Program-made: the position numbers and the translations under genes
In this document: positions 8,783 to 55,945 of the stretch, piece after piece
How positions within the stretch are numbered: position 1 is the stretch's first letter
Layout of the letters: each line of letters opens with the position of its first letter
Notes under the pieces: generated by a model
The model's input: only the letters and a program-made list of their open reading frames with translations
Told to the model about the DNA's origin: nothing
Database searches by the model: none
Assembly: GCF_900166585.1 (NCBI RefSeq)
Contig: NZ_FVZC01000008.1
Coordinates: forward strand, 496,001-560,000
Origin: Mesobacillus jeotgali
GTDB lineage: Bacteria; Bacillota; Bacilli; Bacillales; Cytobacillaceae
Direction: 5' to 3'
Length of the DNA stretch: 64,000 nucleotides

Positions 8783-8905
8783 TTGATATATCTGGAAAAG
8801 TGGTCGATATATTCTAAAATGTGGTCGATATATTTTAAAATCGACTGATATATTCAAAAAAGTGTTCGATAAAATCTGATTTTCGCCAATAAAATCTACT
8901 CTGCG
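8783..8905. repeat. 20-21 bp periodic array, TCGATATAT composite element (one copy)
   Basis: GATA cores lie at 8785, 8806, 8827, 8847 and 8868, followed by CCAATAAAAT at 8887 (steps 21, 21, 20, 21, 20). The order of variants is GTTGATATAT, GTCGATATAT, GTCGATATAT, CTGATATAT, TTCGATAAAAT, CGCCAATAAAAT. The same order recurs at 46 kb and, in reverse orientation, at 55 kb. The array sits between the convergent iadA and chrA, outside both terminators. Confidence 0.85.
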
Positions 8906-8940
8906 TAAATCTGAGCCCGGAATAAGCGTGTCTATTTATT

Positions 8941-8970
8941 AAAAAGCAAAAACCGGGCCGCTGCCCGGTC
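8941..8970 (-). terminator. Rho-independent terminator of the padR-fetAB-chrA operon
   Basis: On the minus strand GACCGGGC-AGC-GGCCCGGT is followed by TTTTGCTTTTT, 4 bp past the chrA stop codon. Confidence 0.9.
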
Positions 8971-8973
8971 TTT

Positions 8974-10167
8974 TTAAAAAATCATATACAAAATCATGCC
9001 GCCTACAGCTCCAGTAACTACAACAATCCATGGCGCAAGCTTCCAGTACACCAGCATGCTGAACAACACGGCAGCGAACACAAAGTCGATTGGTTCTAGA
9101 ATCGAACTTGTCCAGATTGGCTGGTAGAACGCCGCGATCAGGATACCGACCACGGCGGCATTCACACCCATAAGTGCCCGGCTGATTTTGCTGTTCCGTC
9201 TTAACGCATCCCAGAATGGCAGTGTCCCCAAAATCAGCAGGAATGCCGGCAAAAAGATGGCAGCAGTTGCAAGCAGGCCGCCCTGCCAACCGTTGATGAT
9301 CGCTCCGATATAGGCAGCGAATGTGAAAAGAGGACCTGGAACTGCCTGGGCAGCGCCATAGCCTGCCAGGAATGCTTCTTCACTCAGCCATCCGGTCGGG
9401 ACGAATTCACGTTCAAGCAATGGCAGGACAACATGGCCGCCGCCGAACACAAGTGAGCCTGAGCGGTAAAAGCTGTCAAACATCGCAATCCAATTAAGTG
9501 AAGTAGCTTCACGTAAAATCGGCAGGAGAATCAGCAAACCGAAAAACAAACCAAGACTTACAAAACCCACAGTTTTTGAAATTGAAAAGGTCATTCTTTT
9601 ATCATCTGTGGCGTTGTGGGACTTGAACAACACGTAGCCTAAAATTCCGGCGATGATAATAACGCCTATTTGCGTGAACGCGGTCTGCCATAGCAGAGTT
9701 GCTGCGAGCGCGAACAGGGCAATCGTCTTTCTCGGCAAATCAGGAGTCAGCTTTTGGGCCATTCCGAGAATGGCATGAGCAACGACGGCAACAGCAACGA
9801 CTTTAAGGCCATGAATCCAGCCTGCGTCTGCGACATCAAATCCCTGTAAAATCAATGCGAAAATAATAAGGGCAAAAACAGAGGGCAGTGTGAATCCAAG
9901 GAAGGCGAATAATCCTCCGAGCAATCCTCCGTGCATCAGGCCTACTCCGATTCCGACCTGGCTGCTTGCGGGTCCGGGCAGGAACTGGCATAAAGCCACC
10001 AGATCCGCATAGCTTTTTTCATCCATCCATTTCCTGCGGCGGACATATTCTTCATGGAAGTAGCCAAGGTGGGCAACAGGACCGCCGAAAGATGTCAGTC
10101 CGAGCCTTGTGGATACCATCAAAATCTCCAACAGTGACTGGAATGAAACACTCTTTTTATCTGTCAT
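8974..10167 (-). CDS. chrA: Chromate transporter, CHR family, two-domain form
   Basis: A 397-residue membrane protein with two homologous CHR halves (about residues 12-185 and 200-395). Signature motifs are RLGLTSFGGPVAHLGYFHEEYVR and FLPGPASSQVGIGVG in the first half, and RSGSLVFGGGHVVLPLLERE with GYGAAQAVPGPLFTFAAYIG in the second. ChrA proteins export chromate, and many homologues probably move other oxyanions. The start codon overlaps the fetB stop by 4 bp (ATGA), with AAGGAGAAAAAGAA in front, so it is the last gene of the padR-fetA-fetB-chrA operon. The substrate in this organism is an inference from the family only. Confidence 0.92.
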   Translation of the reverse strand: MTDKKSVSFQSLLEILMVSTRLGLTSFGGPVAHLGYFHEEYVRRRKWMDEKSYADLVALCQFLPGPASSQVGIGVGLMHGGLLGGLFAFLGFTLPSVFALIIFALILQGFDVADAGWIHGLKVVAVAVVAHAILGMAQKLTPDLPRKTIALFALAATLLWQTAFTQIGVIIIAGILGYVLFKSHNATDDKRMTFSISKTVGFVSLGLFFGLLILLPILREATSLNWIAMFDSFYRSGSLVFGGGHVVLPLLEREFVPTGWLSEEAFLAGYGAAQAVPGPLFTFAAYIGAIINGWQGGLLATAAIFLPAFLLILGTLPFWDALRRNSKISRALMGVNAAVVGILIAAFYQPIWTSSILEPIDFVFAAVLFSMLVYWKLAPWIVVVTGAVGGMILYMIF

Positions 10168-10958
10168 TTCTTTTTCTCCTTCATAACTAATTGTAATCGA
10201 TCATTGAAAAAGGATTTGTATGCGAGCTGCAAATACAGAATCACTGTCAGCGACACGCTTCCGACGATGCCTAGCATAATCGCGATCTGATATTCCACCG
10301 CTACGATGGGCGACGTTCCGGACAGGATTTGCCCTGTCATCATGCCGGGGAGGAATATGATCCCCATGCCGACCATCGAGTTGATCGTCGGCAGCATCGC
10401 TGCATCAAAGGCCTGGTTGACGACTTTTTTTGCAGCGTGCTTTGGAGTTGCCCCAAGCATTAATGCACCTTCAATTTGTTCTTTGTTCGCTTCAAAGCCT
10501 GATATTAGATTGTTCACCCCAAGTGAAATGCCCGTCATCGAGTTCCCAATAATCATCCCGGCAATTGGGATGAAATAACGAGGCTCATACCACGGCGTGA
10601 CGTTAAGGACGAAGAGAATGAAAAAGAACAAACTTGTCAGGATGCCGATTGCCATGGCTAAAGCGATATACTTTTTCATCATGTCGCCAAGCGGATGCTT
10701 TGTCCTTTTGTAGACATTATAGATGGCGAAAATTTGCATGATGGCAATGATCAACAAGGTATAAAAGGGGTTCGGGTTGTCAAACAGATAGACGAGCAGA
10801 TATCCCACAAGGATGAGCTGCAGCGACATCCGGGCAGTTGCCAGCAGGATTTCTTTTTCACGAGGAATCCCGCGGACCCTGACAATCACGATTAAAATCA
10901 GGATGAAAATGTAGGCAGCAGCAAGCTGCCAAAAGCTCAAATCCATAACATCATCCAT
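10164..10958 (-). CDS. fetB: ABC transporter permease, FetB/UPF0014 family
   Basis: A 264-residue protein with about seven hydrophobic helices. Family motifs seen are ARMSLQLILVGYLL near the N-terminus, the central PIAGMIIGNSMTGISLGVNNL, and LMLGATPKHAA with MVGMGIIFLPGMMTGQILSG. With FetA it forms an ABC exporter that raises resistance to iron and peroxide stress in E. coli. The ATP-binding gene is directly upstream (15 bp gap) and the chromate transporter gene overlaps downstream. ATG start preceded by GGGAGG. The family is assigned with confidence. Iron as the substrate is by homology. Confidence 0.88.
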   Translation of the reverse strand: MDDVMDLSFWQLAAAYIFILILIVIVRVRGIPREKEILLATARMSLQLILVGYLLVYLFDNPNPFYTLLIIAIMQIFAIYNVYKRTKHPLGDMMKKYIALAMAIGILTSLFFFILFVLNVTPWYEPRYFIPIAGMIIGNSMTGISLGVNNLISGFEANKEQIEGALMLGATPKHAAKKVVNQAFDAAMLPTINSMVGMGIIFLPGMMTGQILSGTSPIVAVEYQIAIMLGIVGSVSLTVILYLQLAYKSFFNDRLQLVMKEKKK

Positions 10959-10973
10959 TAGCTATGCCTCCCA

Positions 10974-11627
10974 TCATTCCATTCCGCCTTCAATCGAATA
11001 ACGTGACATATCAATCTTATTTTCGGCAACAATCTCAGCAAGCTCCTTCGAATGGGTAATCATAATGACCGTTTTGGAGTGCTTCCTAACATATTCAAGG
11101 AATCGCAGCAAAACAGTCCTGGCCGTATCCTCATCCAATGCAGAGGTCGGCTCGTCCAGCAGAAAAACCTCGGGATCAAGAAGCATCACCCTTGCCCAGG
11201 AAAGCCGCTGTTTTTCACCTCCGGAAAGGTGGTCTGCTTCTTCATCCAACCGCTTATCCAGCAGAAACAGCTGAAGCAATTCTTCTATGTCCTTTTTGCT
11301 CGCTGGCTCTTTTTCGGAAAAAGCGAGGCCAATCTGCAGATTATCCTCAATGCTGCCGTCAAAAATGACTGGAGCCTGGGGCACCATTCCAACCGTTCTT
11401 CTTAGTTGAAGGGGATTTATTGTGCTGATGGCTTTATTTTTAAAAAGAATCTCTCCCTGATCAGGGCTGGATAGGTCATTCAGCATTCGCAGCAAGGTTG
11501 ATTTTCCGCTGCCGCTTGGACCGGTGATGCAGGTGAACTGATTGCCTGGAATGGTTAAGGTGTCAACATGGATAATCCCGTCCACTTTTACATCTTTAAG
11601 TTCAAACAAACTCCTCACTCCAATCAA
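10974..11627 (-). CDS. fetA: ABC transporter ATP-binding protein, FetA-like
   Basis: A 217-residue ATPase with Walker A GPSGSGKST (about residues 36-44), Q-loop region GMVPQAPVIF, signature LSGGEKQRLSWAR, Walker B VFLLDEPTSALD and switch His in MITHSKEL. It is a complete single nucleotide-binding domain paired with the adjacent FetB permease. The likely TTG start overlaps the end of the padR gene by 4 bp, indicating translational coupling. A GTG three codons downstream is another possible start. Expression is expected to follow the PadR regulator encoded first in the operon. Confidence 0.87.
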   Translation of the reverse strand: MIGVRSLFELKDVKVDGIIHVDTLTIPGNQFTCITGPSGSGKSTLLRMLNDLSSPDQGEILFKNKAISTINPLQLRRTVGMVPQAPVIFDGSIEDNLQIGLAFSEKEPASKKDIEELLQLFLLDKRLDEEADHLSGGEKQRLSWARVMLLDPEVFLLDEPTSALDEDTARTVLLRFLEYVRKHSKTVIMITHSKELAEIVAENKIDMSRYSIEGGME

Positions 11628-11932
11628 TCCTTGATTTCCTTGAACAATTCATAAGCCTTTTTACGGGCTTCGTCCAGCACACTGCTGCCTTTCTCTGTCG
11701 TCCGGTAATATTTTCGGATTTTCCCTTCAACATTTCTTTCTTCTTTTAAAAGAAGGCCGTCCGATTCCATCGAGTGGAGAATCGGATACAGGGTGCCTGC
11801 GCTGATCGTATACCCATGTTCCTTAAGCTCCTCGAGCATCCACAGTCCAAAAATCGGCTGTTCCTTCGCATGGTGCAAAATATGAATATGGATGAATCCA
11901 AGAAACAATTTCCTTAAAACCTTGTCCTCCAT
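11624..11932 (-). CDS. PadR-family transcriptional regulator
   Basis: A 102-residue winged-helix protein. The core motifs YTISAGTLYPILHSMESDGLL and EGKIRKYYRTTEKGSSVLDEA are classic PadR family. These proteins are usually repressors released by a ligand or stress. It is the first gene of the operon with fetA, fetB and chrA, so it probably controls a metal or oxyanion efflux unit. The start is ATG at 11932 (MEDKVLRK) with AGAAGG six bases upstream. An ATG two codons earlier (11938) is also possible. A related start region is preserved in the relic near 14.5 kb, where only the second ATG has good spacing. Confidence 0.9.
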   Translation of the reverse strand: MEDKVLRKLFLGFIHIHILHHAKEQPIFGLWMLEELKEHGYTISAGTLYPILHSMESDGLLLKEERNVEGKIRKYYRTTEKGSSVLDEARKKAYELFKEIKD

Positions 11933-11950
11933 TTTCATCCTTCTTTCCTT

Positions 11951-11997
11951 GATATCGAAATTCGATATCATTATAACGTAACCGGGAATTTAATCAA
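11951..11997 (-). promoter_or_regulatory. padR operon promoter with adjoining perfect palindrome (likely PadR operator)
   Basis: On the minus strand TTGATT (11992-11997), 16 bp, then TATAAT (11970-11975). Immediately downstream lies GATATCGAA-N-TTCGATATC (11951-11969), a perfect inverted repeat with 9-bp arms that covers the expected transcription start. Autorepression by the PadR protein is the simplest reading. A decayed copy of the palindrome is found at 14554-14580. Confidence 0.8.
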
Positions 11998-12103
11998 CTG
12001 TTATACGTATCGCTGGTTTGGAAAAACAAAAATTTTACAATAGAATTTTGCAGAAATTATCAATTTCAAAAAGATGTTGAAATTAAAATAGAATATCTGA
12101 TTA

Positions 12104-12150
12104 AGTGATGTAGTTCACATTTCCGAGTGGTTTAAGCGGATTATCATAAT
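12104..12150 (+). promoter_or_regulatory. Fnr/Crp-type site at class II position before the YVTN lipoprotein gene
   Basis: AGTGA-TGTAGT-TCACA (12104-12119) matches the Fnr consensus TGTGA-N6-TCACA at 9 of 10 fixed bases. A possible -10 box TATCAT (12142-12147) puts the dyad centre near -42 from the expected start, the usual class II activator position. There is no good -35 box, as expected for an activated promoter. AATTTCA-N9-TGAAATT (12063-12085) upstream is a second, unassigned inverted repeat. Confidence 0.62.
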
Positions 12151-12178
12151 GATAGATTCCCAATAAGGAGGGCTCAAC

Positions 12179-13234
12179 ATGAGTCGTATGAATGTAAAAA
12201 TCATTAGTGTATTAGCATCTGTTGGTATAGCTCTGGCGGGGTGCGGATCAACAGCCACCAAGGAGGCAGAAAAGCCTGCAGTAAATGCAGCCAAACAGGA
12301 ACATACTGTGGAAAGGTTCTATTTTACGGCGAATGAGGGCGGGACCATCAGCAAGGTTTCTGCAACAGACAATAAAGTGGCTGCAACCATCAAGGCGGAT
12401 GGTGTTGTCCATAATATCCAGCTGTCCCCTGACGGTAAAGTTGTTGCTGCTACTCTCATTCCGGAGACAGGGCACAGCCATGGCGGTCACGAAGAAAAAA
12501 CACCAGGGAAAGTAGTATTCTTTGATGCTTTTACAAACCAACTTTTAAAAACGGTTGAAGTCGGGAATCATCCGGCGCATGTGGTGTATTCAGAGGATGG
12601 AAAATACGTATTGGCAACAAACAACGAAGATAACACGGTTTCGGTAATCAATGCAGCAACCTATGACCTGGTAAAAACTGTTCCAACCGGCAAGGGCCCC
12701 CATGGGTTCAGGATTTCGGCAGACAGCAAATTTGCCTATATTGCCAATATGGGAGAGGACACGGTAAGTGCAATTAATCTGGAAACATTTAAAGAAGAAA
12801 GAATCAAAACTGGCAATACCCCTGTGACGACCGGAATTACAAGGGATGGAAAGACCCTTGCGGTGACCCTATTCGCTGAAAGTTCCCTGGCCATAGTCAA
12901 TGTGGAGACAAAAGAGATTGTGAAGGTGAAAGTTGGCAATGGACCTGCGCAGGTATATATAGGTCCGGATGACAAATTTGCCTATGTCGCCAATCAGGGA
13001 ACAGAGGAATCTCCATCGAATTCACTTTCAATAGTAGACCTCGAAACAAAGAAGGTTGTCGAGGAAATCGAAACAGGGAATGGAGCGCATGGTGTAACTG
13101 TCAGCAGTGATGGTAAGTTTGCCTATGTAACCAATATGTTTGACAATACCGTCAGTGTGATAGACCTTGAAAGTAAGCATGTAAACACAATCGACGTCGG
13201 GGAAATACCAAACGGCATCACAATCATGGACTGA
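12179..13234 (+). CDS. YVTN beta-propeller repeat lipoprotein
   Basis: A 351-residue exported protein with signal peptide and lipobox ending LAGC (Cys22), so it is probably anchored to the outer face of the membrane. The rest is a seven-bladed-type propeller built from about seven YVTN/NHL-like repeats, each with a GN-x-P-A/H-x-V..DGK-x-AYV-N pattern (for example DGKYVLATNNEDNTVSVIN and DGKFAYVTNMFDNTVSVID). A His-rich insert GHSHGGHEE lies around residue 100 and could bind metal. Such proteins often accompany nitrogen-oxide or metal redox systems. The Fnr-like box upstream and the sirohaem-reductase-like gene downstream agree with that. ATG start behind AAGGAGGG. Precise function unknown. 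Confidence 0.8.
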   Translation: MSRMNVKIISVLASVGIALAGCGSTATKEAEKPAVNAAKQEHTVERFYFTANEGGTISKVSATDNKVAATIKADGVVHNIQLSPDGKVVAATLIPETGHSHGGHEEKTPGKVVFFDAFTNQLLKTVEVGNHPAHVVYSEDGKYVLATNNEDNTVSVINAATYDLVKTVPTGKGPHGFRISADSKFAYIANMGEDTVSAINLETFKEERIKTGNTPVTTGITRDGKTLAVTLFAESSLAIVNVETKEIVKVKVGNGPAQVYIGPDDKFAYVANQGTEESPSNSLSIVDLETKKVVEEIETGNGAHGVTVSSDGKFAYVTNMFDNTVSVIDLESKHVNTIDVGEIPNGITIMD

Positions 13235-13328
13235 TGTTATCATGCATTCAAAAAAATCCACACTTTCTCCACTTTTTCACGGTATTATGTAAATAAATCA
13301 ACTCGTGAAAAAGGAGGAAGGCAGATCA

Positions 13329-13955
13329 TTGGAAGCGACAGAGAAAACAATCAAGCTGGCGGTTAACGGAGGGATTGGTTTTGGATCCAAGCTGAACGCC
13401 AGACAACTGCTCGTCCTGGCAAAGTATATGGAAGAAGATCAGGAATTGGAACTGACAACATTCCAGCAACTGTATATTGAAATACCGGAAAGCCGGAAAG
13501 ACGAGGCGTTGGCTGAGTTTGAACAGGCGGGACTCAGCTGTTATCCGGTCGGAAGCTTTGTGAAAAGCCTGCGAACCTGCAATTTTTGCAAGGGAGCTGA
13601 GGAGGAAGGCATGCCGGTCGCGATTGAACTCAATAAAAGAATGGCCGGCAAACCCGTACCTTTCACGCTTAAGCCAGCATATACCGGCTGCCCGGTTGGC
13701 TGCGGCGAACCGCTGATCAACGACATCGGGATCATGAAGATTAAAGATGGATACAATTTGTATGCAGGCGGCAAGTCAAAAGGTCAGGATGCCGCTGCAG
13801 GAACTATGCTGTTCGAAAATCTAACACCTGACGAACTTTATCAAAAGGTCGACAGATTGATAGAAATCTATAGTGAACAAGGAAGAAAGCGCGAACAGAT
13901 GCACAAATTCATCAGCCGATTTGAAAAAGATGAGCTCATGGAGCTTTTGAATTAG
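13329..13955 (+). CDS. Half-size nitrite/sulfite reductase-like protein
   Basis: A 208-residue protein resembling one half of a nitrite/sulfite reductase: a ferredoxin-like part (about 1-75, TFQQLYIEIP) followed by a sirohaem/4Fe-4S-like part. Its cysteines are C84-x2-C87 (RTCNFCKGAEE) and C121-x3-C125 (TGCPVGCGEP). Full-size enzymes have a duplicated fold and a C-x5-C plus C-x3-C arrangement, so the first pair here is atypical. Related small proteins are annotated as nitrite reductase-like, with no proven role. The start is TTG at 13329, placed by AAGGAGG 11 bases upstream. An upstream GTG at 13305 lacks a ribosome site. It follows the YVTN lipoprotein by 94 bp and is probably co-transcribed with it. 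Confidence 0.75.
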   Translation: MEATEKTIKLAVNGGIGFGSKLNARQLLVLAKYMEEDQELELTTFQQLYIEIPESRKDEALAEFEQAGLSCYPVGSFVKSLRTCNFCKGAEEEGMPVAIELNKRMAGKPVPFTLKPAYTGCPVGCGEPLINDIGIMKIKDGYNLYAGGKSKGQDAAAGTMLFENLTPDELYQKVDRLIEIYSEQGRKREQMHKFISRFEKDELMELLN

Positions 13956-13976
13956 CAGGATAAAAGAAGCGAGTCT

Positions 13977-14022
13977 AAAAACATTGCTTGTAACAATTGG
14001 AATCATTACAAGCAATGTTTTT
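13977..14022 (+). terminator. Rho-independent terminator after the sirohaem-reductase-like gene
   Basis: A long stem AAAACATTGCTTGTAA / TTACAAGCAATGTTTT with a short loop, then T-rich sequence. Confidence 0.85.
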
Positions 14023-14042
14023 CTTGCCTTTTAAAAAATAGT

Positions 14043-14256
14043 CCAACCGTTAATTAAAATGTTCCAACCGGCAATAAAATCGCTCCAACCGGCAATAAAA
14101 TCGCTCCAACCGGCAATAAAATGGCTCCAACCGGCAATAAAATGGCTCCAACCGGTAATAAAGTTGCTTGAACCGGTAATAAAATCGCCTCAACTGAAAA
14201 TAAAGTTATTCGATCGGTAAATAAATCCGATTCAACTGACTTTTCAGAGGTTCTGA
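14043..14256. repeat. 21-bp tandem repeat array, CCAACCGGCAATAAAAT type
   Basis: CCAACC-like cores start at 14043, 14064, 14085, 14106, 14127, 14148, 14169 and 14190 (every step exactly 21 bp), then at 14210 and 14232 in more decayed form. The best units read CCAACCGGCAATAAAATCGC plus T. The central copies are almost identical and the flanks diverged. The AATAAAAT part resembles the closing motif of the composite arrays at 8.8, 46 and 55 kb. Because 21 is seven codons, the minus strand shows a false heptapeptide repeat (VGAILLP). I see nothing else between 14257 and 14390. Confidence 0.9.
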
Positions 14257-14390
14257 CAGGAAATAAAGCGACCAAACTATTAAAACGTCTTATTTAATTG
14301 GCAAAAATCCGCGAAAATGCAATATACCTTGCACCCCCCTCAAAGTCTTATTTCCCGCATAAGCCACCCAGGCTTATGCTTTTTTACGCC

Positions 14391-14419
14391 AAAAAAAAGC
14401 CCCGGAAAAATACCGGAGC
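14391..14419 (-). terminator. Terminator of the multicopper oxidase relic
   Basis: On the minus strand GCTCCGG-TATTTTT-CCGGGGC is followed by eight T residues, 10 bp after the relic's TAA. Confidence 0.85.
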
Positions 14420-14428
14420 CTGCATTAT

Positions 14429-14580
14429 TTATTCTTCTACTTTAAATTGTCCCATCATTCCAGCATCTTCATGCTCAAGGATATGGCAGTGGGACATAAA
14501 AACTCCTTTAAAATCTTGTCCTTCATTTTCATCCCTCTTTTGACAGAAGAAGATCCAATAACGAAATGCGATATCATTTC
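14429..14580 (-). pseudogene. Deletion scar: padR-like promoter/start joined to the C-terminus of a multicopper oxidase
   Basis: On the minus strand the right half resembles the promoter and start of the intact padR gene: ATGATATCGCATTTCG (a decayed operator), AGAGGG, then ATGAAAATGAAGGACAAG encoding MKMKDKIL (compare MKMEDKVL). Within a few codons, in another frame, the sequence becomes [18 protein letters not shown] and ends [13 protein letters not shown]. That is the type 1/2/3 copper motif HCHxxxHxxxxM and tail of a laccase/CotA-like multicopper oxidase. The join falls at the shared stretch around GACAAGATTTTAAAGG. No intact reading frame spans it. This looks like a deletion that removed most of a padR-regulated unit. 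Confidence 0.82.
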
Positions 14581-14692
14581 ACCTAAATATAGACAGATAT
14601 TCAAGCCAGACCATCGTGTCGCGAAAAATAGCATATTTTTAAGATAGGGTGTAAAAATGAGCATATGGAGAGAAAAAGAGGAGTGGAGCGGA

Positions 14693-15214
14693 ATGTCCAA
14701 AAATGCTTTGTCAAAATGGATTAAATTTGGCGGCTGCACCGTTATTGTAATCTCTGCAGGATTATTCATCCTGGGATTTATGACCGGTGAAACAGATTTG
14801 ATGAGCGAGTTTTTCGAGAAGGTCGGAACTATAGCCGAAATAGGGGTGATCACTGCATTTGCATTATGGATGGCCAGATTATTATTCCTTCAGCTAAAAA
14901 AACGAAATTTTATATTTGTAAAGTCGGTTCAACTGGCTTTCAAGCTATTAAGAGAACATCACACCCTGATTGGCTGGGCTGCTTTTTCTGCCGCACTTGC
15001 CCATGGTTCTTATTTTTTCCTGCAGACAAACGAAGAATGGGAAAGCATCTATAGCGGATTGGCGACTTTAATTGGTTTTGGCATCCTTGTGATCTTCGGC
15101 TTGATCCTGGACAAGAGCGCCAGGGGGAAGAAGTATCTTACTTTTAAAAAAGTTCACCAGGCTATGGCAATTGTCTTTGGATTTGCATTAGGAATACATC
15201 TTCTGTTTGGATAA
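14693..15214 (+). CDS. Four-helix membrane protein, probable di-haem cytochrome b-like
   Basis: A 173-residue protein with four predicted membrane helices (about 10-32, 45-65, 85-110 and 118-138, then the last at 150-170 depending on prediction). Histidines lie 14 residues apart in two of the helices: HTLIGWAAFSAALAH and HQAMAIVFGFALGIH. That spacing on two helices is what bis-histidine ligation of two b haems requires in ferric-reductase-like and cytochrome b561-like proteins. The start is ATG at 14693 behind GAGGAG. An ATG at 14657 is open but has only a weak ribosome site. Function unknown. The neighbouring redox genes suggest electron transfer across the membrane. I infer haem binding and have no direct evidence for it. 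Confidence 0.65.
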   Translation: MSKNALSKWIKFGGCTVIVISAGLFILGFMTGETDLMSEFFEKVGTIAEIGVITAFALWMARLLFLQLKKRNFIFVKSVQLAFKLLREHHTLIGWAAFSAALAHGSYFFLQTNEEWESIYSGLATLIGFGILVIFGLILDKSARGKKYLTFKKVHQAMAIVFGFALGIHLLFG

Positions 15215-15334
15215 TAAAAATAAAGACTTCTGCATTCGTTGTCTTAGTTTTCCCAGAGTCGATAGGGATAAAATCGCCTAAAGAGGGAGACAGCTAAAAA
15301 GGTGTGACCTACTATTATTAATAAGGATGTTTCT

Positions 15335-15817
15335 ATGCCTCTCCCAATTTATCTCACCATTGCAATCTTGTTGATTCTGTATATGTTTTTTATGCGCAAA
15401 CCGCTGAACTTTCTGCATAATTCCATAATATATATGGTCATTGTGTTTTTCGGTACGCAATTCATCACGATTGTACGGATGGAGTTTCATTTAATGGAAA
15501 AATCCAGCGGCCATTTGGATTACGTATCATTTCTGCTGTATCGCAACATTTTGCTGCCTGCAGTGGTCTTGATTTTTCTCAATTACTACCTGCAGCAGCA
15601 AGCGGGAAAATATAAAATGGTTCTATTATTGTTCTGTACATTATTGTTGGCTGGACTTGATTGGCTTAACAACTACTTCGGAATCCTGATGTATACCCGC
15701 TGGAACCTGTTGTTCAGTGTGGTTGTTGATGTAGTGTACCTGCTAATTGCCCTGGGAGTCTTGAAGCTGCTTTTGAAAACCAATATCCGGGAGAGCAACC
15801 GAGATGAAAATATATGA
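15335..15817 (+). CDS. Membrane protein of unknown function
   Basis: A 160-residue, very hydrophobic protein with about five predicted membrane helices and a short charged tail (NIRESNRDENI). There is no catalytic motif I can recognise. ATG start with AAGGATG eight bases upstream. It overlaps the next gene by 14 bp, and that gene also encodes a small membrane protein of the same length class, so the two are probably translated together and may form one complex. The 120 bp before it hold AT-rich sequence without a clear promoter or terminator. Confidence 0.7.
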   Translation: MPLPIYLTIAILLILYMFFMRKPLNFLHNSIIYMVIVFFGTQFITIVRMEFHLMEKSSGHLDYVSFLLYRNILLPAVVLIFLNYYLQQQAGKYKMVLLLFCTLLLAGLDWLNNYFGILMYTRWNLLFSVVVDVVYLLIALGVLKLLLKTNIRESNRDENI

Positions 15818-16292: not shown

Positions 16293-16374
16293 GCGTCTGA
16301 TTTTAAATGTTCCTGTCATATTTTCGGAAAATTATATATAATTAGGAAGGAATTTAAAGTAAGGGGATCAATAG

Positions 16375-18295: not shown

Positions 18296-18325
18296 GTATT
18301 TTGCTATCCGCCGGGATAAAATTAA

Positions 18326-38664: not shown

Positions 38665-38945
38665 ATCGGGTTTCAGGTTCAGACAAAATACTGGGATGGG
38701 ATCGCGTACTTTGTCCGAAGCGGGGACAGATTTGGACAAAACTCAAGGTGGAGTTGCTCGGTTTGTAGGAAGTGGGGCCAGGTTCGGACAGAACTCACGG
38801 TGGAGTCGTTTATTTTGTCCGAAGTAGGGTCAGGTTCAGACAAAACACAAGGTGGAGGCGCTCGTTTTGTCCGAAGTAGGGTCAGGGTTCAGACAAACCT
38901 CGGAAAAAGAGCTCACCCTTTGTCTGAAGCTGGTGCACGAATTAT
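38665..38945. repeat. 52-bp tandem repeat with hairpin arms (TTTTGTCCGAA / TTCAGACAAAA)
   Basis: TTTGTCC-like motifs start at 38710, 38762, 38814, 38866 and 38919 (steps 52, 52, 52, 53). Each unit contains TTTTGTCCGAA, a G-rich spacer GTAGGGTCAGG, then TTCAGACAAAA, which pairs with the first part (TTTTGTC/GACAAAA plus GAA/TTC). The joining part reads CACAAGGTGGAGNCGCTCG. The array lies between the end of the nag operon and the promoter of the DUF2164 gene. The frame-open stretch through it on the plus strand is not a gene. Confidence 0.88.
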
Positions 38946-46054: not shown

Positions 46055-46340
46055 TGTGGTTGATATATTGGAAAAAGTGATCGATAAAATTGAAAAACGA
46101 CTGATATATCCTGAAAAGTGGTCGATATATTTCTGTTTCCGCTAGTAAAATTCAGCAGGGTTTTTAAAATAGGTAATTTTTATTTCGATTTAATCTAATT
46201 CACTGCCAATCTATCGATGTGGTCGATATATTGGGAATAGTGATCGATAAAATCCGAAATGTGTTCGATAAAATTGAAAATCCACTGATAAATTCGATAA
46301 AGTGGCCGATAAAATTTCCATTTTCGCCAATAAAATTAAT
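46055..46340. repeat. Two copies of the TCGATATAT composite 20-21 bp array
   Basis: Block 1 has cores at 46062, 46083, 46103, 46124 and 46145 (steps 21, 20, 21, 21). Block 2 has cores at 46225, 46246, 46267, 46287, 46308 and 46329 (steps 21, 21, 20, 21, 21) and ends TTTTCGCCAATAAAAT. The short 20-bp step always involves the CTGATA variant, as in the 8.8 kb copy. The array lies between the convergent yvoF and the broken metallo-hydrolase gene. The 46150-46220 sequence between the blocks is AT-rich without clear structure. Confidence 0.88.
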
Positions 46341-47237: not shown

Positions 47238-47343
47238 AACAGCCCTCCTTTTTGTTTAAGAACCTTTACCCGCTGTCCCTTAAGAAAAACAATACCCTTT
47301 TTGCACGTGCGATTTAAAAAAAGAAATCATGAAGAGCTAATGG

Positions 47344-47372
47344 TTGACGGATAATAAAATGAACGGTAAACT
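47344..47372 (+). promoter_or_regulatory. Likely SigA promoter of the his operon
   Basis: TTGACG (47344-47349), 17 bp, TAAACT (47367-47372). I see no T-box or other leader structure in the 90 bp before hisZ. Confidence 0.65.
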
Positions 47373-47462
47373 ACATATAACTTCATCTTATTACCATATT
47401 AGCGAACTAAAGGATTTCGATAATTTTAATAAAAAAACACCGCAACGAAGAGGGTGAACATA

Positions 47463-48638: not shown

Positions 48639-49258
48639 ATGATCAGCTGACAATCGCCATGCCAAAGGGCAGGATTTTTACCGAAGCAGTTGATTTGCTC
48701 CGCAATGCCGGATTTGATCTTCCGCCTGAATTTGATGATTCGCGCAAGCTGATTATCGATGTCGAAGAGGAAAGATTTCGCTTCATACTGGCGAAGCCGA
48801 TGGATGTGGCTACATATGTTGAACATGGTGTTGCCGATCTTGGGATTGCTGGCAAGGACGTTCTTCTCGAGGAAGAACGGGATGTGTACGAGCTGCTTAA
48901 CCTGAAAATCAGCGGCTGTTATCTGGCAGTCGCTGGACTTCCAGATACGAAAATGAACGATGTTGCGCCGAAAATAGCGACGAAATATCCGAACATTGCT
49001 GCCGCTTATTTCCGCGAACAGGGTGAGCAGGTCGAGATTATTAAATTAAATGGATCCATTGAGCTTGCTCCGATGATTGGCCTTGCCGACCGGATTGTTG
49101 ACATTGTCTCAACAGGAAGAACCCTGAAAGAGAACGGTCTGGTGGAATATGAAACAATCACGGATGTCACTTCGAGATTGATCGTGAACCCGGTCAGTTA
49201 TCGGATCAAGGATGAACGGATCAGCGAACTGATCAAGAGGTTGAATGAAGTAATTTAA
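48635..49258 (+). CDS. hisG: ATP phosphoribosyltransferase catalytic subunit (short form)
   Basis: A 207-residue short-form HisG, lacking the C-terminal regulatory ACT-like domain and therefore dependent on HisZ. Motifs: [32 protein letters not shown] and the PRPP-binding [14 protein letters not shown]. It catalyses the first step of histidine synthesis, joining ATP and PRPP. The start is ATG at 48635 behind AAGGAGGGAG; an upstream open frame overlaps hisZ and is spurious. Coupled to hisZ through an ATGA overlap. Confidence 0.96.
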
Positions 49259-49286
49259 TAGTTGAATCTGAAAGGATTTGATTTCA

Positions 49287-50552
49287 GTGGAAATTTTACA
49301 GATAGATGGCAATTTGTCGCTGAAACGAACGGTTGATGGCGGTACGGAGGAACAGCGCAAGGCCGTACAGGCAATCATCGCGGAAATAAGGTCCGAGGGC
49401 GACAAGGCTCTTAAGGCTTTTACCGAGAAATTCGACTCAGTGACGCTTGAGGAATTCCGTGTAACCGAGGAGGAAATCTCTGAAGCCTATAAGACCGTCA
49501 GCAGCCAGCTAGTCGACATCATCACCGAAGCAGCAGCCAATATTCGCAAATACCATGAAAAGCAGCTGCGCCCATCATGGATGACAACAGAGGAAAATGG
49601 CACGATGCTTGGCCAGAAGGTGACGCCGCTTGATTCGGTTGGTGTATATGTGCCAGGAGGAACCGCTGCATACCCATCTTCAGTCTTGATGAATGTCATT
49701 CCGGCCCGGACCGCCGGAGTAGAACGAATTGTCATGGTTTCGCCGCCGGGCATGGATGGGAAGCTTCCGGCTGGTGTGCTGGTTGCAGCACATATTGCCG
49801 GGATAAAAGAAATCTATAAAGTTGGCGGTGCACAGGCCATTGCGGCACTTGCGTATGGAACAGAAACCATTACACCAGTCGATAAAATCACAGGCCCAGG
49901 CAATATTTATGTGGCACTGGCTAAACGCGAAGTTTTCGGCGATGTCGCGATTGATATGATTGCAGGGCCTAGTGAGATCGGAATCCTCGCCGATGATACA
50001 GCGAGAGCCAATGAAATTGCGGCCGACCTGCTTTCCCAGGCGGAGCACGACCCACGCGCATGTGCCGTTTTGGTGACAACGTCCCGTACCCTGGCGGAAG
50101 ATGTGCAGGACGAGGTGTATAAACAGCTGTCGCAATTGCCGCGAAAAGAAATCGCTGCAGCCTCCATTGAGGACTTTGGCGCAATCTATGTCGCATCAGA
50201 TTTGGATGAAGCCATCGGAGCGATTAACCAGCTGGCTCCTGAACACCTTGAAATTGTTACGGAAAATCCAGTTGAATTGCTCGGCAAAATCAAGCACGCG
50301 GGAGCAATTTTTCTCGGCAGATATAGCTCGGAACCAGTAGGGGATTATTTTGCCGGACCGAATCATGTCCTTCCGACGAATGGAACAGCGCGCTTTTCAA
50401 GTCCGTTGAGCGTCGAGGATTTCCAGAAAAAATCAAGCATCATTTTATACAGTGAGCAGGCAATGAAAGATAATGGTGCGAAAATTGCCGAATTCGCAAG
50501 GCTTGAAGGGCTTGAAGCACACGCCCGTGCAGTAGAGGCGCGGCTGAAATAA
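49287..50552 (+). CDS. hisD: Histidinol dehydrogenase
   Basis: A 421-residue zinc enzyme catalysing the last two oxidations, L-histidinol to L-histidine. Motifs: [68 protein letters not shown], and the base-pair of residues in LAPEHLEI with [18 protein letters not shown] start at 49287 is favoured by spacing from AAAGGA. A TTG at 49278 is almost on top of that site. 28 bp after hisG. Confidence 0.97.
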
Positions 50553-50576
50553 GAATTTTTCCAGGAGGTACATTTC

Positions 50577-51164
50577 ATGGAACGGATTGCAACAGTGAAC
50601 AGGTATACAAATGAAACAAAAATAGATTTAACTTTTGGGATTGATGGGGAAGGAAAATCCTCTCTCGAAACAGGAGTGCCTTTTCTCTCTCACATGCTCG
50701 ATTTATTTGCGAAGCACGGACAGTTTGACCTGAATGTGGATGCAAAGGGTGATGTTGAGGTTGATGGCCACCATACAACCGAGGATATCGGCATTTGCAT
50801 CGGTCAGGCGCTCCGCGAAGCACTAGGAGATAAAAAGGGAATCAAACGCTACGGAAACGCCTTTGTGCCGATGGATGAGGCACTTGCACAGGTTGTAATC
50901 GATCTAAGCAACCGTCCGCACCTCGAAATGCGCGCAGAATTCCCTGCCCAGCAGGTCGGAACTTTCGATGTTGAGCTTGTCCATGAATTTCTCTGGAAGC
51001 TTGCACTTGAAGCGAGAATGAACCTGCACGTTATCGTACATTACGGAAAAAATACACACCATATGATAGAGGCAGTATTTAAGGCGCTTGGGCGAGCACT
51101 TGACGAAGCAACGACCATCGACCCGCGCATAAAAGGTGTTCCTTCAACGAAGGGGATGCTGTAA
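50577..51164 (+). CDS. hisB: Imidazoleglycerol-phosphate dehydratase
   Basis: A 195-residue monofunctional HisB. Manganese-binding His motifs: LSHMLDLFAKHGQFDL, DGHHTTEDIGI, VHEFLWKLALEARMNLHV and KNTHHMIEAVFKALGRAL, plus DLSNRPHLE. It converts imidazoleglycerol phosphate to imidazoleacetol phosphate. ATG start behind AGGAGG. The following 104-bp gap to hisH is the largest in the operon and carries three AAATGCT copies at uneven spacing. hisC is not in the operon, as in other Bacillus. Confidence 0.97.
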   Translation: MERIATVNRYTNETKIDLTFGIDGEGKSSLETGVPFLSHMLDLFAKHGQFDLNVDAKGDVEVDGHHTTEDIGICIGQALREALGDKKGIKRYGNAFVPMDEALAQVVIDLSNRPHLEMRAEFPAQQVGTFDVELVHEFLWKLALEARMNLHVIVHYGKNTHHMIEAVFKALGRALDEATTIDPRIKGVPSTKGML

Positions 51165-51268
51165 AGAGATTTAAAATGCAAAAAATGCTCCAATAGCAAA
51201 AATGCTGTTAGAAACCGTTAAATAAAAGAAATGCTCTAAGAGATCTTCAAACGGAAGGAAGTTGAACC

Positions 51269-51910
51269 ATGATTGGCATCGTCGATTACGGAATGGGCAA
51301 TTTGTTCAGCGTAAGCAAAGCGCTTGAACGGCTGGATGCGCCCTATTTCATCTCACAATATAAAGAAGGATTAATGGAAGCAGATGCATTGCTTGTTCCC
51401 GGCGTTGGTTCATTCCGAGACGCAATGGACGTGTTGAATCGAACTGGTTTGACGGATATGATCCGGAATTTTGCTGCGACAGGCAAGCCAGTGCTTGGCA
51501 TTTGCCTTGGCATGCAGCTGCTGTTTGAAGAAAGTACAGAGAATGGCCTGACAGAAGGTTTGAAGCTTTTGCCTGGAAAAGTCGGCCGTTTCAGCGGAAA
51601 GACAGCTGATGGGGAGTCCTACAAGGTGCCGCATATGGGTTGGAACAAGCTTCGGTTTACCGGTGAATCGCCTCTGCTTGATTCTCTTCAAGAGGATTAT
51701 GTGTACTTCGTTCATTCTTATTATGTAAAAACGGATGACCAGGACGTGCTTGTTGCAGTTGGGGATTATTATGATATCGAAGTGCCGGCCATAGTGGGCA
51801 GAGGGAATATATACGGCATGCAATTCCATCCGGAAAAAAGCAGTGACATGGGAATGGGGCTGCTCCGCAACTTTACGAAACTTGCAGCAGAAAGGAAGTC
51901 TGAGCAATGA
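51269..51910 (+). CDS. hisH: Imidazole glycerol phosphate synthase, glutaminase subunit
   Basis: A 213-residue class I glutamine amidotransferase. The nucleophile Cys is in [16 protein letters not shown], and the His-Glu pair in [11 protein letters not shown]. It feeds ammonia to HisF for synthesis of IGP and AICAR from PRFAR. ATG start behind GGAAGGAAG. Overlaps hisA by 4 bp. Confidence 0.97.
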
Positions 51911-52638
51911 AATTCACCATCTACCCGGCAATCGACATGCGCGGCGGAAAATGTGTCCGGCTGCTGCAGGGCGATTATGATAAGGAAACAGTGTATGGGG
52001 ATTCGCCCTTCGAAATGGCTAAGAAATTCGCCGCGGAAGGTGCGGAGTGGATTCACATGGTTGATCTCGACGGTGCCAGGGATGGCAAGCGCGTTAATGA
52101 TCAGTTTGTTATCCAGGCAGCTCAGGAGCTAGGCGTGAACGTACAGATTGGCGGCGGAATTCGCAGCGAATCGGACATCACCCATTATCTTGAAAATGGT
52201 GTTAACCGTGTCATCATCGGAAGCATCGCGGTTTCCAATCCTGAATTTGCAGAGGAGATGGTCAGGAAGTACGGCGCCAAAATCGCAATCGGCCTTGACG
52301 CCAAAAACGGCTTTGTCGCAACACACGGCTGGCTGAACACTTCCGAAGTGAGCGCTCTTGAGCTAGGCAAAAGATTCGCTGATGCCGGTGCCGAAACATT
52401 CATTTTTACCGATATTGCAACGGATGGCACACTTGCTGGACCAAACGCCGAGGCAACACGTCAACTAGCATTGGAAACAGGAAAAAGCGTCATAGCTTCT
52501 GGGGGTGTCAGCTCGCTTGACGACCTGGCTGATCTCCGTCGGTTAAGTAAAGATGGCGTCAGCGGTGCGATTGTCGGCAAAGCCATTTATGAAGGCCGCT
52601 TTTCGGTAAAATCAGCGCTGGAAATGGGGAATGCCTGA
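51907..52638 (+). CDS. hisA: ProFAR isomerase
   Basis: A 243-residue TIM-barrel enzyme. The catalytic Asp pair is in [19 protein letters not shown] and [14 protein letters not shown], with half-barrel phosphate motifs [12 protein letters not shown] and [14 protein letters not shown]. It isomerises ProFAR to PRFAR. Overlaps hisH by 4 bp, and its stop codon shares a base with the hisF start. Confidence 0.97.
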
Positions 52639-53396
52639 TGTTAAGCAAACGGATTATTCCCTGTCTTGATGTTAAGGATGGACGCGTCGTAAAAGGAATT
52701 CAGTTCGTCCAGCTCCGTGATGCCGGCGACCCGGTCGAGCTTGCCAGGTTCTATGACGAGCAGGGAGCAGACGAGCTTGTGTTCCTCGATATCTCAGCTT
52801 CTGTCGAAGGCAGGAAAACCATGGTCGAGGTGGTCAGGGAAGTGGCCTCAGAACTGGCGATTCCTTTTACAGTTGGAGGAGGAATCAACACTCTCGAAGA
52901 TATGAAGAAAATGCTCCGTTCGGGTGCTGATAAGGTATCCCTGAACACCGCAGCTGTGAACAACCCGAAACTCATCGCACAGGGATCTGATTATTTTGGC
53001 GCCCAGTGCATTGTCGTTGCGATTGATGCAAAGTTTGATCCCGAGCTCGGTTCATGGCGGGTGTATACCCACGGCGGCCGCACCTCGACAGAATGGGAAG
53101 TCATTGAATGGGCAAAAGAAGCCGTTCGCCTCGGCGCAGGGGAAATCCTCCTCACGAGCATGGACAGCGACGGTGAAAAGAATGGATTCGACCTTGAGTT
53201 GACGCGTGCCGTCAGTGAAGCGGTGACAGTTCCGGTCATTGCTTCAGGCGGTGCCGGAAACGCCGACCATTTTGTCGAAGCTTTTATTGAAGGAAAAGCA
53301 GATGCCGCCCTCGCCGCATCGATTTTCCACTACCGCGAAACATCGGTTAAAGAAGTGAAATCCCACCTCCAAGAAAAAGGAGTGACAGTACGATGA
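52638..53396 (+). CDS. hisF: Imidazole glycerol phosphate synthase, cyclase subunit
   Basis: A 252-residue TIM-barrel cyclase. Catalytic Asp residues are in [20 protein letters not shown] and [15 protein letters not shown]. Phosphate motifs are [12 protein letters not shown] and [13 protein letters not shown]. It works with HisH. The start is ATG at 52638, sharing the last A of the hisA stop. It overlaps hisI by 4 bp. Confidence 0.97.
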
Positions 53397-54037
53397 ATAT
53401 AGAAGAATTGAAATTCGACGCCAGCGGGCTGATTACCACCGTCGTTCAGGATGCAGCGACACGTGAAGTCCTGACTGTAGCCTACATGAATAAAGAGTCG
53501 CTCGCAAAATCTCTGGAAACACGAGAGACCTGGTTCTACAGCCGTTCCCGCCAGGAGCTCTGGCATAAGGGGGCAACTAGCGGCAATACCCAGAAAATCG
53601 TTGAGATCAAATACGATTGTGATGGGGACGCTCTGGTCGTTCTAGTTGAACCTGCCGGGCCAGCCTGCCATACAGGCGCAGTCAGCTGTTTTTCGGAAAA
53701 CCTGCTAGGTGAGATTGATACTGAAAGCACATCAATAGCCGATTTCGCCGTCATGCTCGAGCTGGAAAAAACGATTCGCGAGCGTGAGCAGACGATGCCA
53801 GAAGGCGCCTATACCACCTACCTGTTTGAAAAAGGGGTGGACAAGATCCTGAAAAAAGTAGGCGAAGAAGCCTCCGAAGTCATCATTGCCGCCAAAAACC
53901 GGGATGCTGAAGAACTAAAATGGGAAGCCGCCGATTTGCTGTATCATCTGATGGTCCTGTTGCAGGAGCAAAAGCTGCCTCTAAAAGAGGTACTTGGAGT
54001 TTTAAATAAAAGGAAGAAACCCAGCGCTGGAGAGTAA
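53393..54037 (+). CDS. hisI: Bifunctional PR-AMP cyclohydrolase / PR-ATP pyrophosphatase
   Basis: A 214-residue HisIE fusion. The N-terminal cyclohydrolase (about 1-115) has [22 protein letters not shown] and the zinc/magnesium motif [22 protein letters not shown]. The C-terminal pyrophosphohydrolase (about 125-210) has [15 protein letters not shown] and [13 protein letters not shown]. It carries out steps 2 and 3 of the pathway. Last gene of hisZGDBHAFI. The terminator begins within its last codons. Confidence 0.97.
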
Positions 54038-54058
54038 ATCGCGCTGGGTTTGTTTTTT
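54018..54058 (+). terminator. Terminator of the his operon, overlapping the hisI stop
   Basis: AACCCAGCG(C) pairs with (G)CGCTGGGTT around the stop codon region, followed by TGTTTTTT. Confidence 0.88.
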
Positions 54059-54061
54059 GGA

Positions 54062-55036
54062 TTATTGGTCGAAGAAATTTTTGGGAGGAGAATAGGTTCG
54101 CCCTTTGTTTGTGCCGTTGTAAACCAAATTGAGGGAGGTCAGGATTCTATTTGCGGTGGTAGTAGAGTTAATGTTGGTGAGTTCGCGAAATTGCCTGTTT
54201 GTAATGAATGGTCCGTAGATCAGGAAATAATCCTTTAATGCCTGAATGTGGGCATCCTTTGAAGTGTTCCCGCAGTAGTTGCAAGTCCAATTCCCCTGGC
54301 GGTAGTCCATACCGAATGTCTCACACGATGGGCACTGCGCCCCCTGAATCATTTGGTCGAGAGGAAGGTTCATAGTTTTGTTATCAGGGATAAGTGGTTG
54401 GTGGGCTTTTATTAAATGTCTGGAGATTTTCTTCATATCATTTTTTGAGAGTATGGCCTTGGGATACTTTTGATAGACCTGAGGGATTTTGTAAGCCACA
54501 AATGATGACCTGAAAACTCGGTAGCTGACATCGGGATCATGGTCGGGGTTTTTAATCAGTGCCTGTGAGTTGCTGATAGCTACCAGGTATTCAACAGGTG
54601 GAGGATCAATATGGTGCTTTTTCAAGAAGGCTTTTAACTGAGATGCCTGAATTCTTGCCTGGAGGATGGGGTCGGAAAAAACTTCTTGGATATCGTTTTG
54701 CACTCGAATCAATTGATTGAATTCGGGAAGGAAAATGAGTGTTCCAGCGTAATTTTTGGAATCGATATTGAGGAGAAATTGTGGAGTGATGATGAGAGTA
54801 TCGAGTTGGAAGAAAGTATCGTTGATGGGAATTCTTAAATCCTGCAAAATCAGCATTTCAGAGTGGTCGATTTGTGATAAGTGATAATCCAGTGTCTTTT
54901 CACCCTTATACCCGGCTAATTTTCGATATAGTTTCTTCTCAAAGTCAGCTTTTCTGTAATCATCAGCAGGAAATCGCCTTACAATTGCCTCTAAAATCAT
55001 AATCTCCTTGGGAAATTCTCTTACTTTTCCTATCAA
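54062..55036 (-). CDS. NERD-domain protein with C-terminal zinc ribbon
   Basis: A 324-residue protein. The nuclease-related (NERD) domain spans about 35-150, with GEKTLDYHLSQI, ILQDLRIP, FQLDTLIITPQFLLNIDSKNYAG (the D...D/E-x-K core) and LKAFLKKHHI. The C-terminal part has a zinc ribbon CPSCETFGMDYRQ...CNYCG (about 235-255) and a short helical tail with an HTH-like NSTTTANRILTSL. NERD proteins are linked to DNA processing by homology, with no defined reaction. TTG start behind AAGGAGTG. It lies between his and yvcD, genes that are close neighbours in B. subtilis, next to a long repeat array. Probably a lineage-specific insertion. Confidence 0.82.
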   Translation of the reverse strand: MIGKVREFPKEIMILEAIVRRFPADDYRKADFEKKLYRKLAGYKGEKTLDYHLSQIDHSEMLILQDLRIPINDTFFQLDTLIITPQFLLNIDSKNYAGTLIFLPEFNQLIRVQNDIQEVFSDPILQARIQASQLKAFLKKHHIDPPPVEYLVAISNSQALIKNPDHDPDVSYRVFRSSFVAYKIPQVYQKYPKAILSKNDMKKISRHLIKAHQPLIPDNKTMNLPLDQMIQGAQCPSCETFGMDYRQGNWTCNYCGNTSKDAHIQALKDYFLIYGPFITNRQFRELTNINSTTTANRILTSLNLVYNGTNKGRTYSPPKNFFDQ

Positions 55037-55117
55037 ATGCTATCACTCCTTAAAAATTGTACTGTTTTATTCGCCTTTAATATAGAAAATACCTTCTTTT
55101 AAATTTAACATTATTGG

Positions 55118-55945
55118 CGGAACTAGCAAGAACTCCAAAGAAAAATTACCTGTTTTAAAAAACCCCCGCTGCACTTTATTGGCGAAAAATAAAATATATC
55201 AACCACATTTTGAAATATATCAGTCGATTTTGGATTTTATCGACCACATTCAGAGATATATCGCCCACTTTTCGAATTATATCGACCACATCGAAAAAAT
55301 GCCGGATCACTTATCGCAATAGTGAAGCACATTACGAAAACTAGCAATACCTCCAAAGAAAAATTACCTGTTTTAAAAAACCCCGCTGCACTTTATTGGC
55401 GAAAAATAAAATATATCAACCACATTTTAAAATATATCAGTCGATTTTGGATTTTATCGACCACCTTCAGAGATATATCGCCCACTTTTCGAATTATATC
55501 AACCGCATCAAAAAAATGCCGGATCACTTGCTTATCGCAATAGTGAAGCACATTACGAATACTAGCAATACCTCCAAAGAAAAATCACCTGTTTTATAAC
55601 CCCCGCTGCACTTTATTGGCGAAAATAAACTATATCAACCACATTTTAAAATATATCAGTCGATTTTGATTTTATCGACCACATTCAGAGATATATCGCC
55701 CACTTTTCGAATTATATCGACCACATCGAAAAAATGCCGGATCACTTATCGCAATAGTGAAGCAAAAAATAGCAATACCTCCAAAGAAAAATCACCTGTT
55801 TTAAAACCCCCGCTGCACTTTATTGGCGAAAAATAAAATATATCAACCACATTTTAAAATATATCAGTCGATTTTGGATTTTATCGACCACATTCAGAGA
55901 TATATCGCCCACTTTTCGAATTATATCGACCACATCGATCCACCC
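55118..55945. repeat. Four tandem 207-221 bp units, each a reverse copy of the TCGATATAT composite array
   Basis: The landmark CTCCAAAG occurs at 55133, 55351, 55572 and 55779. Each unit reads: CTCCAAAGAAAAATTACC, CCCGCTGCACTTTATTGGCG, then periodic TATC cores (in the first unit at 55197, 55218, 55238, 55259 and 55280, steps 21, 20, 21, 21), then TGCCGGATCAC and a short tail. Reverse-complemented, the variant order and the closing TTTTCGCCAATAAA are those of the arrays at 8.8 and 46 kb. The units are over 90% alike by eye, with small indels (GCTT, GGATT). From 55946 to 56132 is the yvcD promoter region. Confidence 0.92.

Follow-up and report, generated by a model that had tools for sequence, protein, structure and literature searches.

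Composite arrays in the window

The stretch of DNA analysed here, hereafter the window, is 64,000 nucleotides of the 4.63-Mb genome of Mesobacillus jeotgali (G000:C8:496001-560000), and its subject is a composite intergenic element in which a GC box and an AT run recur every 20-21 bp. The dnaA gene of this genome lies at C8:9651-10967 on the minus strand, which places the window about 0.5 Mb from the origin. A sequence-only reading of the window had pointed to seven copies of the element, and all seven were found in place, at three loci near 8.8, 46 and 55 kb.

Each copy is a row of five or six units, every unit being a GC box plus an AT run, set at steps of 20-21 bp. Units were coded G (GTGGTCGATAWA-type), C (TCGACTGATATA, with a flipped box) and T (TTTTCGCCAATAAA). 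A copy is laid out as two to three units of the form GTGGTCGATAWAWT..., a flipped-box unit (within the window TCGACT or TCCACT followed by GATAWA), GTGGTYGATAWA and finally TTTTCGCCAATAAA. Array 1 (8779-8898, plus strand; L009) reads G,G,G,C,G,T with steps of 21, 21, 20, 21 and 20 bp. Two copies on the plus strand make up the 46-kb locus (L011): array 2a (46055-46150) reads G,G,C,G,T, with one G unit fewer, and array 2b (46218-46338) reads G,G,G,C, a GTGGCC unit and T. The four copies at 55 kb, all on the minus strand, are arrays 3a (55813-55934), 3b (55607-55725), 3c (55386-55507) and 3d (55169-55290); with their linkers they form a tandem block (55121-55938, minus strand) of 3.8 copies of a roughly 217-bp unit.

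The steps between GATA cores are 21, 21, 20 and 21 bp in the five-core copies, with the exception of one copy with a step of 19. The element had been said always to end on TTTTCGCCAATAAA and always to contain the 20-bp step, and each statement holds for six of the seven copies: array 2a ends on TTTCCGCTAGTAAA, and array 3b, which lacks one base ahead of its C unit, has a step of 19 bp there. What had been taken for an end signature, TTTTCGCCAATAAA, is a unit in its own right, placed 20 bp past the preceding unit in most decoded chains, and a unit of its family, TCGCCAATAAAAT, builds entire arrays alone in genomes G010, G008 and G004. The copies are intergenic, as had been proposed, but the accompanying claim that they lie beyond terminators fails at the 55-kb block, which sits between the start sides of two divergent open reading frames (ORFs; 54062-55036, minus strand, and 56133-57641, plus strand).

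Occurrence and unit order across the genome

A profile of the element built from sequence only (R1) gave 62 matches at E ≤ 1 in the M. jeotgali genome, of which several may share one locus; they are spread over contigs C4-C9, 45 reach E ≤ 1e-3 and the best stands at 7.5e-34. Because of this number of matches and the strength of the best, a chance origin is excluded, and the element extends far beyond the three loci of the window.

For the analysis of unit order, 22 distinct loci were picked among the 30 best matches and decoded into chains of at least three units with allowed steps of 19-22 bp; L012 gave no chain, which left 21 loci. Steps of 20 or 21 bp account for 121 of the 126 steps decoded (mean 20.6 bp). 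Of the 13 loci with exactly one C unit, 12 have it as the penultimate unit, against an expectation of 2.9 (L011, where the longest chain contained two C units as read, was kept out of the 13), and the T unit closes the longest chain in 12 of the 21 loci and is internal in none; these loci are partly dependent, since the 55-kb block and the C7 block are copies of each other and three loci adjoin sequence resembling ribosomal RNA (rRNA). Two outcomes had been named beforehand as speaking against the element, a restriction to the three loci and an order no better conserved than local duplication would give, and neither occurred. From the conserved order and steps across loci, we therefore conclude that the composite is dispersed, or kept, as a whole.

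The 55-kb block is related to a block at G000:C7:305-306 kb, the two being 82-84% alike in long alignments with the linkers included. One block has been copied between these two distant loci. Local multiplication of the array block is visible in G000 and in G013.

Two further features were seen among the matched loci. At L014 (G000:C5), L021 (G000:C9) and L022 (G000:C4), composite arrays stand just past apparent ends of rRNA operons, recognised by eye from a 5S-like sequence and a terminator. At L024 and L027, GTGG-type and CCAC-type boxes, which are mutual reverse complements, alternate to give a super-unit of ~41 bp; the box flips and the AT run stays in place.

Period and unit sequence at orthologous sites

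Starting from the flanking gene, we traced four window sites into 15 genomes of the same genus, that of M. jeotgali included. Hits outside the genus were excluded from the tally, repeats of 11-12 bp with scores of 40-45 were counted as none, and rows of 41, 42 or 63 bp were counted as multiples where a 20-21-bp row accompanied them.

Site A (8.8 kb) holds 12 arrays at 15 sites (L134 unused), and its period-21 arrays comprise seven of the GGTC type, three of the GAGAGATTAT type and one of the CAACGGGGAATAAA type. At site B (46 kb) all 10 arrays found at 15 sites have a period of 20-21 bp, seven being of the GGTC type, two of the TCGCCAATAAA type and one of the GTAGTGATT type; 24-bp rows at the far end in G010 and G013 were set aside, and that of G013 outscores its 20-bp row. 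Every one of the 10 sites at C (55 kb) has an array of 20-21 bp, nine of the GGTC type and one of the TTCGCAAAATT type, five genus members with only weaker, paralog-like hits having been left out. The cores of the GGTC-type arrays at this site are GATAWA in some species and GAATWA in others, and a single array is present in eight of the nine other species over the 620-bp stretch shown, with more in G013. Site D (14 kb) was traced to 11 sites, its own included, without the paralogous hits L308, L309, L312 and L313; four arrays of 21 bp there have related CCAACCG boxes, one of them counting only 2.7 copies.

With multiples counted as above, 35 of the 37 arrays at the 51 sites of A-D have a period of 20-21 bp, although shared ancestry means that the 37 are not independent events, the independent part being the change of unit family at A, B and C. 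At the sites examined, species thus differ in unit sequence, which drifts or gives way to an unrelated unit of equal period, but they agree in the period and often in the location of the array.

The array at site A of G007 (L128) has a period of 33 bp. It consists of GC-rich GGAACCTGGC words, is near three helical turns in period and belongs to a genus member without R1 matches.

Drift of the AT run

Alignments of seven species at site A, five at site B (of its seven GGTC-type species) and seven at site C (without G000, G001 and G014) were divided into columns of GC box, AT run, spacer and flank, and gap columns were set aside (12 in the AT run, 9 in the spacer and 108 in the flank). Where the majority base of a variable column was A or T, the change was between A and T only in 25 of 32 columns of the AT run, compared with 45 of 146 in the flanks (p = 1.4e-6) and 24 of 58 in the spacers (p = 9e-4); two further variable columns of the AT run have a G/C majority. 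The words GATATA, GAAATA, GAATTA and GAATAA substitute for one another in the AT run. Drift confined to A and T would be the expected trace of recognition of weak pairs via the minor groove, or of local flexibility.

Spread among relatives

R1 matches at E ≤ 1e-3 are present in 18 of the 20 other members of the genus searched, with 5-29 matches each. An exact two-unit pattern was found in 26 stretches of named records, among them M. selenatarsenatis, M. subterraneus and M. boroniphilus, and also in records titled Bacillus sp., Cytobacillus oceanisediminis, B. methanolicus and Chryseobacterium sp. The last of these (L084, L088, L102, L108 and L109, titled Chryseobacterium sp. ISL-80) carry these Bacillaceae elements under a title that is probably wrong.

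Outside the genus the exact words fade and GATAWA arrays at 20/21 bp persist; in examples taken from other genera the build recurs with different boxes. Triplets of GATAWA at 20/21 bp occur in 96 of 249 genomes of the order and in 49 of 102 genera, a few of which contribute no more than one match, and the rows with few matches are partly simple repeats or chance. The overlapping matches number 2430, against 56 in 22 genomes for the reversed pattern used as a control, and 63 genomes, belonging to 23 families, have at least five matches, a level that the control reaches in 5 genomes. In a class-level draw of 200 genomes, 30 matched, 25 of them outside the order and mostly with one or two matches. 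More than five matches outside the order were seen in three genomes, G285 (49, part of which resembles a coding repeat), G332 (8) and G377 (37).

Period classes, chromosome position and gene context

Evenly spaced samples of 60 × 20 kb from G010, 40 × 20 kb from G008 and 20 × 20 kb from G045 were passed through Tandem Repeats Finder (TRF). We selected arrays less than half covered by ORFs, with at least three copies, a TRF score of at least 75 and a period of at least 8, and took as the period the shortest one with at least 60% of the best score; at a score of at least 50 the sample list holds many two-copy arrays of other periods. In G010 the selection contains 17 arrays of 20-21 bp, 1 of 41, 29 of 52-53 and 1 of 35, so that 46 of its 48 intergenic arrays have a period of 20-21 or 52-53 bp. 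The G008 sample contains 8 arrays of 20-22 bp, 23 of 52-53 and 1 of 30.

The terminus was taken as the point opposite dnaA; a search for dif using the pattern of the B. subtilis site, with 3 mismatches allowed, did not find it. When G010 and G008 are pooled, the 20-22-bp arrays are divided 22:3 between the origin half and the terminus half, and the 52-bp arrays 21:31 (Fisher, 7e-5). Effects of gene dosage and of intergenic space are controlled for internally by the 52-bp class. In G010 alone the halves stand at 16:1 versus 13:16 (p = 0.001) and a division by the terminus third at 17:0 versus 20:9 (p = 0.017). The 102 merged R1 loci of six complete genomes fall into sextiles from origin to terminus as 23, 34, 29, 13, 1 and 2. 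Relative to the replication fork, the loci of six genomes are oriented 45 opposite to 8 codirectional on the right arm and 26 to 23 on the left arm, from which we draw no claim, the loci being common to the six species.

Arrays often lie 25-120 bp after a gene end. An ORF of at least 150 aa overlaps the array in 1 of 70 rows, a count in which shorter ORFs are ignored and some loci are entered twice. A coding origin was considered and rejected: the 20-bp steps break the frame, and the arrays lie outside long ORFs. Among gaps of at least 150 bp in the G010 and G008 samples, defined by crude ORF calling, 20-22-bp arrays were present in 7 of 105 gaps between convergent genes, 13 of 424 between tandem genes and 2 of 159 between divergent genes (p = 0.049; these 22 gaps hold 25 arrays). 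A position beyond the terminator is a tendency among the arrays.

Other repeats and features in the window

Two other arrays in the window have 21-bp units unrelated to the composite: AAAATCGCTCCAACCGGCAAT at 14035-14188 (plus strand, 7.4 copies), which is site D above, and TAGTGATTCAAGCTTAAAACG at 361-496 (plus strand, 6.4 copies). A tandem array of 52/53 bp at 38710-38929 belongs to the second size class known from Bacillus; the 52-bp units of G010 and G008 often contain inverted word pairs such as GACAG..CTGTC and CATAAGGGTA..TACCCTTATG. A 42-bp repeat, GGTTAGCTTTTTTAATGCAAAAAGAGTGATTGCAAGGAAATA, corresponding to four helical turns, occupies 57674-57829 in 3.7 copies after the ORF ending at 57641. 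An Rfam search placed a T-box leader at 7214-7449 on the minus strand (112.6 bits).

Discussion

Units at a mean of 20.6 bp, or ~10.3 bp per helical turn, bring the AT runs close to a common face of the helix. The earlier suggestion that this phasing suits a protein on one DNA face stands to the extent that the spacing is held at two turns while the sequence drifts or is replaced. Our tentative reading, to which we would give a little less than an even chance, is that the arrays are phased minor-groove sites for a putative architectural protein; what the data show is the build, spacing, order, turnover and drift of the arrays, and the protein, its wrapping and a function are inferred. Selection may act on geometry, that is, on weak base pairs every two turns, because the period, and often the place, is kept while the unit letters drift or are replaced. 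The reading of the DNA would take place from the minor groove, where A:T resembles T:A, and the reader might be an abundant nucleoid protein that binds the arrays cooperatively. Such binding could bend or wrap ~100-130 bp into a fixed structure between genes, and the wrapped arrays might be anchoring or organising points, mainly in the origin half of the chromosome. Copying between loci and local duplication would renew and spread the arrays.

A bolder form of this proposal, which we consider unlikely, is a geometry code, in which bacteria of the order maintain sites, mostly in the origin half, where a conserved protein reads weak pairs every two turns almost regardless of sequence. If it were true, the unit words could be replaced wholesale while site and period stay, and the arrays would form a class of chromosome element akin to centromeres or anchors, recognised by spacing and not by motif, a chromosome-organising signal that motif searches have missed. 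The Bacillus repeats, constant in size but variable in sequence, have posed a puzzle ever since their first description. The turnover per site, the A/T drift and the positions of the size classes make it testable: the protein should favour spacing over letters.

Several observations weigh against phased sites for such a protein. The mean step of 20.6 bp is slightly below 21.0. A given array is dispensable, because many sites are empty in close relatives and, under strict filters, R1 matches nothing at E ≤ 1e-3 in two members of the genus, G007 and G011: an array is absent from site A in 2 of 15 genomes and in addition from the 131 bp available in G011, from site B in 5 of 15, including G009 with only 175 bp available, and from site D in 6 of 11. 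The period is not always kept either, as site A of G007 has an array of period 33 (L128) and site D of G006 one of 52 bp. The origin bias is clear in one of the two sampled genomes, both of one genus; in G008 alone the halves stand at 6:2 versus 8:15 (p = 0.10) and the division by the terminus third at 6:2 versus 15:8 (p = 1.0). The R1 loci counted by sextile in six complete genomes are partly orthologous and were placed with rounded genome lengths. The loci behind the order counts are partly dependent, as the copied 55-kb and C7 blocks illustrate. Finally, the 400 kb sampled from G045, a genome of another family, contained no 20-22-bp and no 52-bp arrays, with four arrays of other periods.

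The main rival is a tolerated satellite, in which replication slippage and recombination create arrays that ride as passengers between loci and persist only through the tolerance of intergenic space, and the period is mutational and not selected. Empty and replaced orthologous sites are common, a block has been copied between two distant loci, blocks have multiplied locally in G000 and G013, and arrays are commonest in convergent gaps (7/105) and rarest in divergent ones (2/159), all of which speaks for this rival. A passenger accounts less well for AT runs that drift between A and T only next to flanks that drift in the ordinary way, for unrelated units that share a period at one place, for steps that stay exact in diverged arrays, and for pooled samples in which the two size classes differ in chromosomal distribution. 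We regard the tolerated satellite as possible, if doubtful.

The recurrence of an ordered composite at many loci would also fit a dispersed mobile-type element, similar to a miniature inverted-repeat transposable element or a repetitive extragenic palindrome (REP) and moved by an enzyme encoded elsewhere. Elements of the first of these types are marked by terminal inverted repeats and target-site duplications. No terminal inverted repeat is evident by eye in the aligned copies, copy length varies with the number of units, and the same sites are occupied across species, also by unrelated units; we consider this explanation improbable. The 52-nt repeats of B. coagulans are reported to be transcribed (Subirana & Messeguer; PMC8161180, PMC8625621), and the arrays might likewise function as RNA, either as a small RNA, a sponge or a 3'-end signal. 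We think this very unlikely: eight single folds were not clearly better than those of shuffled sequences (z from -1.5 to +0.4), a consensus fold yielded nothing either, no compensatory pair was found in the arrays, no Rfam match at gathering score fell on them (the T-box leader being the sole match in the window), and arrays occur in tandem, convergent and divergent gaps alike. A likeness to DnaA boxes was weighed and set aside. Gyrase or another topoisomerase might wrap the arrays as ~120-130 bp of flexible DNA that is helically phased and adjoins active genes, in a manner comparable to the bacterial interspersed mosaic elements (BIMEs) of Escherichia coli. This explanation is the least probable of all: the element is ~120 bp long, helically phased and often 25-120 bp past a gene end, but the GC box and the origin bias are left unexplained.

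Comparison with known systems

The Noc-binding sites of Bacillus are spread along the chromosome and bound by a protein associated with it, as the arrays would be under the reading of phased protein sites. Noc sites are single short palindromes, not known from the terminus, and by this description they differ from phased arrays. BIMEs and REPs of E. coli are short ordered composites dispersed between genes, often past gene ends, and in that respect the arrays resemble them; REPs are palindromic and fold, whereas the arrays showed no such folding. Helically phased A-tracts of prokaryotes share AT runs in phase with the helix and have been described as relevant to nucleoid structure, but they form a genome-wide periodic signal of 10-11 bp, unlike the discrete arrays of 20-21-bp units described here.

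The closest relatives are the 20-21-nt and 52-nt repeats of Bacillus, of constant size, variable sequence and unknown function (Subirana & Messeguer 2021; PMC8161180), which account for 781 (20-21 nt) and 1886 (51-53 nt) of 4029 tandem repeats in 176 Bacillus genomes; the authors noted the two helical turns and proposed a DNA-polymerising protein or small RNAs. The element is therefore not the undescribed system for which the sequence-only reading had put it forward as a candidate: the kind is known, and the observation is confirmed and larger than the window shows. The arrays have the size of the 20-21-nt class (121 of 126 steps), at least four repeats (5-6 units) and a noncoding position, and several families of equal size occur per genome, namely 361-496, 14035-14188 and the composite in M. 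jeotgali, and likewise in the G010 and G008 samples. With the 52-nt repeats they share intergenic position, constant size and several families per genome; the 52-nt class differs in its inverted short-word pairs and in its spread from origin to terminus in the two samples.

PMC8161180 also finds the sequence unconserved between species and describes it as species-specific, a description and not a criterion for inclusion, and here the arrays depart from it, with R1 matches in 18 of 20 other genus members and GATAWA at this spacing in 49 of 102 genera of the order. In the main text of that article, the terms oriC, origin of replication, terminus, orthologous, AT-rich and minor groove do not occur. 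Among the titles and abstract openings that literature searches on such repeats returned, none concerned origin bias, ordered composites or orthologous replacement, and none described such repeats in Mesobacillus; the J. Bacteriol. predecessor of that article, outside this scope, may mention chromosomal position. To the published description our analysis adds the ordered composite, the turnover of units at orthologous sites, the A/T drift, the origin-half bias and the cross-genus GATAWA. What is apparently new is that these repeats retain their period at orthologous sites while unit families differ, exchange A and T in the AT run, favour the origin half (clearly so in one of the two genomes sampled) and share a GATAWA core at this spacing in 96 of 249 genomes of the order.

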